DNA of 64,000 bases from Notolepis coatsorum (lineage: Eukaryota; Chordata; Actinopteri; Aulopiformes; Paralepididae): NCBI GenBank assembly GCA_963971535.1, contig OZ020586.1, forward strand, positions 77,228,703 through 77,292,702, given 5' to 3'. How positions within the stretch are numbered: position 1 is the first letter of the stretch; every line of letters starts with the position of its first letter. The position numbers and the translations under genes are program-made. Below, piece by piece: positions 701-51,900 of the stretch. The notes under the pieces were generated by a model that had not been told where the DNA came from, ran no database searches, and saw only the letters and a program-made list of their open reading frames with translations.

Positions 701-797
701 CCTGTCTCCTCAGGAAGCGTGTGAAGGTGTAATACCCGTCTCCTCAGGAAGCGTGTGAAGGTGTATTACCTGTCTCCTCAGGAAGCGTGTGAAGGTG
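701..797 (-). repeat. 34-bp tandem triplicate of an exon end plus splice donor
   Basis: Three copies of a 34-bp unit. Each holds the last bases of the CENP-B exon (CTTCCTGAGGAGACAG) and a GT donor: GTAATA, GTATTA, GTATTA. The spacing of donors is 770, 736, 702. Confidence 0.95.
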
Positions 798-973
798 CGT
801 GACTTGACGAAGACGCTTCGGGGGAGCAGTGTCTTCTTGGCTCGCACGCTGGAATGCAGGCTGAGGTTGTGATGCAGCATAAAGTCCACTGCCCACTTGT
901 AGAAATTGGACCCAAACTTAGTCTTCAGCTTCTCTGTCACCACCTCAAGCATGTTCTGTTCCGTGATTGGTAG
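770..973 (-). CDS. pogz: pogz exon, second half of CENP-B-type HTH; donor triplicated
   Basis: 204 bp, phase 0 at both ends. It opens [20 protein letters not shown], continues [16 protein letters not shown] and ends TRFLRRQ, matching the family (YEWAVRFMLRHHL). The acceptor is CCTCTCTAG and the donor is GACAG|GTAATA. The exon end plus donor recurs twice more with a 34-bp period at 736 and 702. Use of those would shift frame. The DDE-encoding part must follow left of base 1. Confidence 0.95.
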
Positions 974-48900: not shown

Positions 48901-51900
48901 GCCCTGGAAGAGTCGGTTACATCACTTTATTAAAGCAGGAGAGGGAAGAGTCTGTTACATCACTATCAGAGGAGAGGGAAGAGTCGGTTACATCACTATA
49001 TCAGAGCAGGAGAGGGAAGAGTCGGTTACATCACTATATCAGAGCAGGAGAGGGAAGAGTCTGTTACATCACTTTATCAGAGCAGGAGAGGGAAGAGTCG
49101 GTTACATCACTATATCAGAGCAGGAGAGGGAAGAGTCGGTTACATCACTATATCAGAAAAGGAGAGGGAAGAGTCTGTTACATCACTTTATCAGAGAAGG
49201 AGAGGGAAGAGTCGGTTACATCACTATCAGAGAAGGAGAGGGAAGAGTCTGTTACATCACTATCAAAGAAGGTACAATTCATCATTGTATCAGAGGAGAG
49301 GAGTGTTACATTACTATCAGAGAAGGAGAGGATAGAGGAGAGTTACATCCATGTTTCAGAGGAGTCTGCTCTGTTACATTGATTTATCAGAGGAGGAAGA
49401 GGAGAGAGAAGAAAGAATGATGAAGGAGAAGAGGAAAATAACAAGAGTGAGGAGAGTATGAAGGTTTCTACTAGGGGTGGAACGGTTCACAAAAATAGCA
49501 TAAATTACTTTAATTAAACATGAATTAATGTTAACTTACGTATTAGTTACTTAGTATTCATTATTCTTAGTGTACTATGACAGTACAAGGAAATAGTCAA
49601 AGGCCAGTTAACTACCACAAAGACACTCCATACACACCCCAGGAGTGATGTATTAGACTACAGCAAAGGGTTCCACACAGTACCAAAGTAAACCCAGGAG
49701 TCATGTATTAGACTACAGCAAAGGGTTCCACACAGTACCAAAGTAAACCCAACGGCCTCTAGGTGACCCGAACCATGGTGGTCAAACCAAAGAACCGGTC
49801 CATCCCTAATTTCTAATGATAACCAGTACCAGTATGGTTGCAGTCCTACTCTCCAGTATGTACCTGTGATGACCATGGAGGCAGGTTGAGGAGGAGTGAA
49901 GAGCCCAGTTTGTCCCAGTGAGGCCACCTCCTCTGCTGAGCTGCCAGACAACACACCTGGACACAGAAACAACAACACTGTCACAGCGTTGCCCCCTAGA
50001 CTCACACTCTGCTATATACTAGGGGTGGGAATCACCAGTTTCATCACGATACGATACGATATCGATTCTTTGGACAACGATACGATATTTTCCGATATCA
50101 CAAAGTCTGCCACGATACGATACGATACGATTCGATTCAGGTGCCTGCGATCGATATGAGACGATATTATATGCCCATTTAACACTATGGTCACCAAAAA
50201 CGCCGTAGCACGTCTTTCCCCGCCATGCTCATCCTGCCAAAGACGCCGTACCACGTCTTTGATATCAATATTTCAAAAATCTGTGATCGAAATCATATTT
50301 CTCCCCCGGAGACTTGAGATCTACTGTTGAGCCCCTCTCAACTCTCCAACGGTTCAAGAGCGCCATCTGGTGGCCGATCGGCGGATCGCCCAGAGCGGAA
50401 ACAGGAAATGGAAGCTGGTGCTCATTTCAATTCGGTCCGATCACTCTGTAATAGTCCCAGGACTCGAGCTAGACACAACGGATAGCAATCCGTTACCAAT
50501 AACTCGATAAACAACATGATTTGGACGTATATACTATTATACAACCTTAGTAATGTCAATTTAGCAATACAATTTAAAAAGTTATAGCCCTGCAAATAAG
50601 GGGAACATCTCCATAGACTTACAGTGGTGGCAGAGAAGGGAGTAAGATCAGAATAATCTCTGGCAGATAAAGGGTTAATATCCTATCACAGCGCTGTATT
50701 TTGGCTGGAAAAGGCATATTGGGAGTCAGAACGTGCAGTACCGGCCAGATCCTGTTAGTGGGGCTATCTCGAGAATGCAGTAACCCCCCCTCCTTCCCAG
50801 TCCCTAGTGGACCTCAGCTTAGCTTAGTTAGCTCACGCTAACGCAACGTTAATTTCGGTATTTAACGCGACGTGGGCATAAAGGAATGGCGAGGATGGAA
50901 AGCATGTTAGATGCATTTGACCCCTCGTGGGGGAAAAAATAACAGGCACTTATTTCGGGCAAAATAGGCGGACTCTGAAGCAATGTTGTCTAACGTCTAC
51001 ACACGCTGAGCTGCGCTGAGCTACTGTTGTTGTTGCAGCCAGCCGGGCGGGCGGATATGCTCACGAGGGGATTTTCAAAATAAGAGTATCACAATATGAA
51101 TCGATCTTTTTACGTTGCATCGATCCTATTTGATAATTGATAATAGATCAATATATCGATCTGGATCGATGTATTGTCCCACCCCTACTATATACTAGTG
51201 ATAATAGGTGTGTAGTATTTACTAGTGACAATAAGTGTGTAGTATTTACTAGTGACAATAAGTGTAAAGTATTTACCAGTGATACGTGTAGTATTTACTA
51301 GTGATAATAGGTATGTAGTATTTACCAGTGGTAATAAGTGTGTACTGTGTAGTATTTACCAGTGATAATAGGTGTGTAGTATTTACCAGTGATAATAGGT
51401 GTGTAGCATTTACCAGTGATAATAGGACCGTGTGTAGTATTTACCAGTGGTAATAAGTGTGTACTGTGTAGTATTTACCAGTGATAATAGGTGTGTAGTA
51501 TTTACCAGTGGTAATAAGTGTGTACTGTGTAGTATTTACCAGTGATAATAGGTGTTGAAGACACAACAGGTGTGGGGGTGGAGCAGGAGGAGGTGGGAGA
51601 GGAGAAAGAGACCGTCCCTGCGGCCACAGTGTTGATGGTCTTCACGCTGCATGCGCTGATGGTGAGGGGGATCTGCAGGGTGGAGAAGCCCCCGGCAGAG
51701 CCTTCTTGCTGGGAGAGAAGCAGCTCTGCCCCTCCGCCTGGAAGATAGAAAACCAAGAGACATGGTCAGACCAGGAGGGCAAGTAAAAAATCTGTATATT
51801 TTTCAATTCTGAAAGTACATTTTTAGTACATTATGTTTGGTAAAAGTACTGTACTTTTCTGAAAGTATTTTTTAGTACTCCTTATATGCGTTCATGTACT

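Follow-up and report, generated by a model that had tools for sequence, protein, structure and literature searches.

Four of the 20 exon ends of a teleost pogza-like gene are repeated into the intron that follows them, with units that comprise the last 9-30 exonic and the first 6-33 intronic bases. We consider it quite probable that these arrays are 'mirage' minisatellites derived from donor junctions that were duplicated locally in tandem, and predict that the exon-proximal donor is the one in use. The analysis covers a stretch of 64,000 nt, referred to as the window.

The pogza-like gene

Homology together with splice signals indicates that the minus strand of the window holds most of a teleost pogza-like gene, which runs on past the window's low end; its first exon was not located within the 64,000 nt. 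Of 7990 proteins scored against a query built from the exons, 704 reached E <= 1e-5; among the matches listed (120), the best were fish pogz/pogza (down to 8e-178), with proteins of Thunnus, Seriola and Enoplosus at the top, and the homology to teleost pogz/pogza includes the zinc fingers and the exon order. Mapping by tblastn of 49 proteins from that list, 45 of them from named fish, gave 14 matching regions in the window. The remaining exons were placed from splice signals, phase and by-eye reading, including exon 17 (8723-8663) and the donor of exon 16 (8978), which lie outside the protein matches and are based on splice signals and phase. A first model of 18 exons was dropped, one of its donors (27844) being wrong. 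The final model has 20 exons, where 19 had been counted in an earlier sequence-only reading, and all five exon ends named in that reading are donors of the model; its 967 codons, joined through the first donor copies, contain no stop, and a decaying gene was rejected on that ground. Identity to the ray-finned fish proteins is 45-56% over the part compared, and a tree of 25 proteins unites the window with Lampris, Myripristis and percomorphs in a supported 14-member group without fixing its place.

Some other features of the locus were recorded. Exon 4 (49864-49956) is an extra in-frame exon of 93 nt that resembles the following exon at its start (GVLSG; score of the local alignment 31.5) and reads VITG at its end; it is absent from the 21 of 49 relatives that have a TPIITG-type motif, in which a VVSG-type segment comes directly after the motif. 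Open frames that by eye resemble retrotransposon reverse transcriptase are found at both ends of the window (3-458 and 63145-63998).

Arrays at donor junctions

Arrays detected by TRF cover four donors, and the whole donor lies within each unit; by TRF and self-alignment a junction-spanning repeat unit is present at four of the 20 donors, with a fifth, gapped case at 6246 (Table 1). The sequence-only reading had described all five as donors turned into tandem-repeat units, which holds for 770, 5324, 29983 and 51540 but only in part for 6246, where the array is weaker, interrupted and devoid of GT. Its further observation that several donors of this gene carry arrays unlike in sequence but alike in geometry is borne out.

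Table 1. Arrays related to donor junctions of the pogza-like gene, and the exons concerned (window coordinates; a slash marks the exon/intron junction)
Feature	Coordinates	Strand	Description	Evidence
pogza exon 20, last in window	770..973	minus	ends FTRFLRRQ, donor CAG/GTAATA	tblastn, splice sites, open frame, conserved end
Array over donor 770	696..797	minus	34 bp x3.0	TRF, self-alignment
pogza exon 19	5324..5554	minus	donor CAG/GTAGAG	tblastn, model
Array over donor 5324	5201..5353	minus	51 bp x3.0, copies identical (100%)	TRF, copy comparison
pogza exon 18	6246..6456	minus	donor GAG/GTGAGA	tblastn, model
Array akin to the 6246 junction	5694..5881	minus	40 bp x4.7, without GTGA	TRF, by-eye reading, gapped self-alignment score 16
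pogza exon 10	29983..30083	minus	ends YVCQ, donor CAG/GTAACC	tblastn, model, relatives
Array over donor 29983	29881..29991	minus	41-42 bp x2.7	TRF, copy comparison
pogza exon 3	51540..51737	minus	ends TPIITG, donor CTG/GTAAAT	tblastn, model, relatives
Array over donor 51540	51189..51555	minus	13 junction copies; TRF 27 bp x12.9, unit 27/34 bp	TRF, copy comparison

The share of exon and intron in the unit varies from one donor to another: 28 exonic and 6 intronic nt at 770, where the intron copies read GTATTA; 30 and 21 nt at 5324, a unit that is in frame and free of stops; about 9 and 32-33 nt at 29983; and 16 and 11 nt in the founding 27-bp unit at 51540. This last array keeps the GT in 13 of 13 copies and the G at position -1 in nine of 13, the eight copies nearest to the exon all being CTG/GTAAAT and all four CTA/ copies being found among the five farthest. 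Copy-specific substitutions or indels are present in the arrays at 770, 29983 and 51540.

The array related to 6246 begins about 365 bp inside the intron, and a 4-base gap relative to the exon junction deletes the GT. More partial copies occur near 6197-6221 and 5602-5626, and inserts that by eye look transposon-like part the array from the junction. It is likely that this is an older case in which the GT has been lost from the units. The exon end there is variable after KFLG in the first 20 of the 49 proteins, so that copying could have run in either direction at this donor.

At the four clear donors, the exon is likely the source of the repeat unit. The exon-end patterns were found in the 49 pogza proteins in 21 cases for the TPIITG type, 39 for Y[VI]C[QE] and 45 for REQQ, never twice in one protein; proteins that miss a pattern give no information for or against. 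The exon end at 770, FTRFLRRQ, aligns with FTRFLQRQ of Myripristis and with FTRFL.RQ, FTRFV.KQ and weaker versions, and 21 of 24 aligned relatives have Q as the final residue. Since the four clear exon ends are conserved in relatives, the exon would have been the template and the intron copies would be derived from it.

Simple and tandem repeats are also found near other splice sites. Microsatellites begin directly at three more donors or a few bases beyond them, namely (AC)n after 30550 (30360-30543) and after 20759 (20369-20756), and a GTGA-type repeat after 27854 (27647-27849), and they adjoin three acceptors, as (CT)n before the exons at 21288 (21291-21330) and 30707 (30713-30793) and as (GT)n before 9096 (9100-9222). 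The pairing of AC and GT repeats in fish introns has reportedly been treated in a published paper. One intron holds two arrays (47333-47531 and 48906-49263) whose 38-bp units are closely similar; the first comes within about 12 bases of the acceptor at 47321, to whose upstream tract it contributes. Another array, with a 43-bp unit in 2.1 copies (30108-30196), is separated by about 25 bases from the downstream acceptor at 30083. A 4.2-kb satellite with a 28-bp unit in about 156 copies (21787-26048, TRF) is located inside a pogza intron.

Frequency of the arrays and chance overlap

The score of each 40-base junction was that of the best match no more than 400 bases away, and positions every 5 bases along the window were scored in the same way. 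At score 26, four of the 20 donors passed, as against 16.4% of intron positions (binomial P = 0.42), or 9.4% without the 4.2-kb satellite (P = 0.11). The same four passed at score 20 (P = 0.56, and 0.24 without the satellite), and at score 16 the number rose to seven, including those with microsatellites at 27854 and 20759 (P = 0.145, and 0.031 without the satellite). Circular shifts of the 20-exon model gave P = 0.093 and 0.12 on a 5-base grid, on which six donors, not seven, pass score 16; with 19 exons the values were 0.076 and 0.11, and with the rejected 18-exon model 0.019 at score 16 (0.041 without microsatellites) and 0.12-0.23 at score 26. Figures of this kind are what would be expected if intronic tandem repeats were dense enough for some of them to land on donors without any elevated rate at junctions, and such a chance overlap is possible, though we regard it as somewhat doubtful.

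The intron-position and circular-shift nulls address only how frequently a point falls within repeats. Because the exon copy is likely the source, it is more pointed to ask with what frequency a founding unit would have covered a donor, as a conserved exon source implies that it did. Random placement of founding units gave 0.36 expected donor hits, as against four observed (P = 4e-4), a result that argues against chance overlap; the test used 33 of 39 arrays with units of at least 15 bases, hand-picked from 85 TRF rows with overlaps merged, the six low-complexity arrays being left out. If a two- to fourfold dilution of the introns by transposons is assumed, P becomes 0.006-0.06. Also against chance overlap, no acceptor bears a comparable minisatellite array (0 of 20 at score 20; 18 acceptors compared with the TRF arrays), and the single acceptor that passes at score 16, at 21288, does so via a (CT)n run. 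In a one-sided Fisher test of donors against acceptors, 4/20 versus 0/20 gave P = 0.053 and, at score 16, 7/20 versus 1/20 gave P = 0.022.

The frequency of these arrays had been described as far more than expected by chance. With intron positions scoring as high as the four clear donors in 9-16% of cases, the comparison with random positions, once run, comes near to refuting that statement about the rate; what stands of it is the founding-unit excess. A true but moderate excess at donors is likely, in a single gene that was chosen because it looked odd.

Extra donors and alternative explanations

It had been proposed that selection for spare donors could explain the arrays. Extra copies at weak 5' splice sites might reinforce the recruitment of U1 snRNP or serve as backup, and some features would suit such a role: the GT retained throughout the 51540 array, the 51-bp array at 5324, the only one in which the extra donors are in frame (adding 17 or 34 residues), and the lack of G at position +5 in four of four strict array donors as against three of 16 others (P = 0.007, post hoc). 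The consequences of using the extra copies elsewhere speak against it. At 29983 both extra donors add an immediate stop codon; at 51540 the nearest extra donor shifts the frame, so that a stop is reached in the exons that follow, while for each of the remaining 11 copies a stop already lies within the added sequence; and at 770 the extra donors shift the frame, the next exon being outside the window. On a 5' splice-site matrix, the donor nearest to the exon scores at least as high as the other copies of its own array, and the intronic copies at 770 and the last copy at 29983 are weaker; one GT outside the repeats (5198) scored above the donors of the 5324 array. The +5 association weakens to P = 0.031 when 6246, whose units have no GT, is added. 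The missing +5 G could hint at a link to weak donors, counter to a pure passenger view, but relaxed constraint could equally yield it. Frame and matrix results taken together fit passenger copies better than selected backups. Spare donors were rejected as the main account, given that extra-donor use would shift the frame or bring in a stop at three of the four clear donors and that the 6246 units have no GT; we regard selection of this kind as unlikely.

A mutational process directed to the junction, such as R-loops, transcription-coupled repair or slippage at 5' splice sites, would create the duplications where they are found, and both the founding-unit excess and the difference between donors and acceptors are in its favour. 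Unequal survival of donor and acceptor duplications could, however, yield that asymmetry alone, and no terminal microhomology is visible by eye in the units at 770 and 5324. We hold a dedicated process to be improbable. An assembly artefact, with repeats collapsed or expanded, is suggested by the identity of all three copies at 5201-5353, but the copy-specific differences in the other three clear arrays and the inserts that break up the one at 6246 make it very improbable.

Origin and meaning of the arrays

Local tandem duplication of donor junctions is the explanation that we prefer for the four clear arrays. A short segment with a complete donor would have been duplicated in place; the first copy would be unchanged, the exon retaining its coding sequence, as the conservation of the exon end in relatives suggests; and the extra copies would have become intronic and then have multiplied and drifted as a minisatellite, a course to which the copy variants point. 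Duplications of acceptors may more often disrupt splicing and be lost, which would be consistent with the 20 acceptors without a comparable array. The introns are rich in tandem repeats (the 33 TRF arrays kept above), and a general duplication process with survival of harmless copies is simpler than a dedicated junction mechanism. Some observations run counter to the preferred explanation: plain random duplication does not account for the excess of founding units at donors, the strict array donors all lack the +5 G, all 13 copies at 51540 retain the GT, the GT at 5198 outside the repeats scores above the 5324 donors, and amphioxus mirages are found at both boundaries, which by analogy suggests that a rule of donor-only survival would not be general.

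Several boundary-spanning minisatellites in one vertebrate gene would provide a test case for the tolerance of introns to donor duplication, for the preponderance of donors over acceptors seen here, and for a possible role of the arrays in seeding new exons or gains of introns. Moreover, boundary arrays could mislead gene prediction. A bolder proposal, which we put forward as a long shot, is that weak donors lacking the +5 G might be recurrent birthplaces of minisatellites in this fish lineage and form a reservoir of splice signals of mobile length that feeds new exons and isoforms; exon 4 (49956-49864), which starts like exon 5 and comes after the intron holding the 51540 array, might be a first product.

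Comparison with known systems

The sequence-only reading knew of no described system of this kind, but such structures have been published. In amphioxus, the available text of PMC3087553 describes mirages as minisatellite-like tandem duplications of exon/intron boundaries in Adh3, BflGb6 and BflGb9, with Adh3 units of 10-72 bp and globin units of about 150-160 bp; either boundary can be duplicated, the clusters are unstable in length, and according to the authors there is apparently no interference with regular splicing. The evidence cited there includes RT-PCR, two haplotypes that differ in copy number and somatic instability of Adh3. The pogza units likewise span the exon/intron boundary, many copies but not all carry splice signals, and the unit lengths (27/34, 34, 40, 41-42 and 51 bp) are inside the range given for mirages. 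On the other hand, the pogza arrays are found at donors only, with four or five of them in one gene, and are known from one sequence.

In human CBS, a 31-bp VNTR, c.1444_1467+7(16_21), comprises 24 exonic and 7 intronic bases (PMC2630376, as far as its text is available) and is located at the exon 13/intron 13 boundary, more repeats being linked to lower activity according to the accessible part of a review (PMC5188458). The donor-junction unit of pogza is similar, e.g. 28 + 6 at donor 770, whereas the CBS repeat is polymorphic with 16-21 copies and pogza has about 3 to 13 in one sequence. In recently duplicated human genes, the text consulted of PMC2812944 reports variable repeats that average 30-bp units in four copies and 27 intron modifications at boundaries. 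The internal tandem repeats at exon-intron boundaries are a feature in common with pogza, but those repeats are defined by variation between paralogues and tied to novel introns, while pogza is known from a single sequence, in which no intron is new.

Intron gain by tandem duplication also involves a duplication that crosses an exon/intron boundary; there, the new intron arises at an acceptor-side duplication, whereas the pogza copies remain within the old intron. No new intron between the pogza copies appears in the model, and the spliced frame is open without one. The available text of PMC3045353 describes, for MSTN-2 of sea bream, a block of about 150 bp that occurs either once or twice where intron 1 begins (5' end). 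No report of four or five such arrays in one gene was found in the literature searched, in searches not designed as proof. By analogy with the amphioxus genes, the pogza arrays are best filed as a teleost example of the known mirage minisatellites, and what is notable here is that four or five boundary arrays are gathered in one teleost gene.
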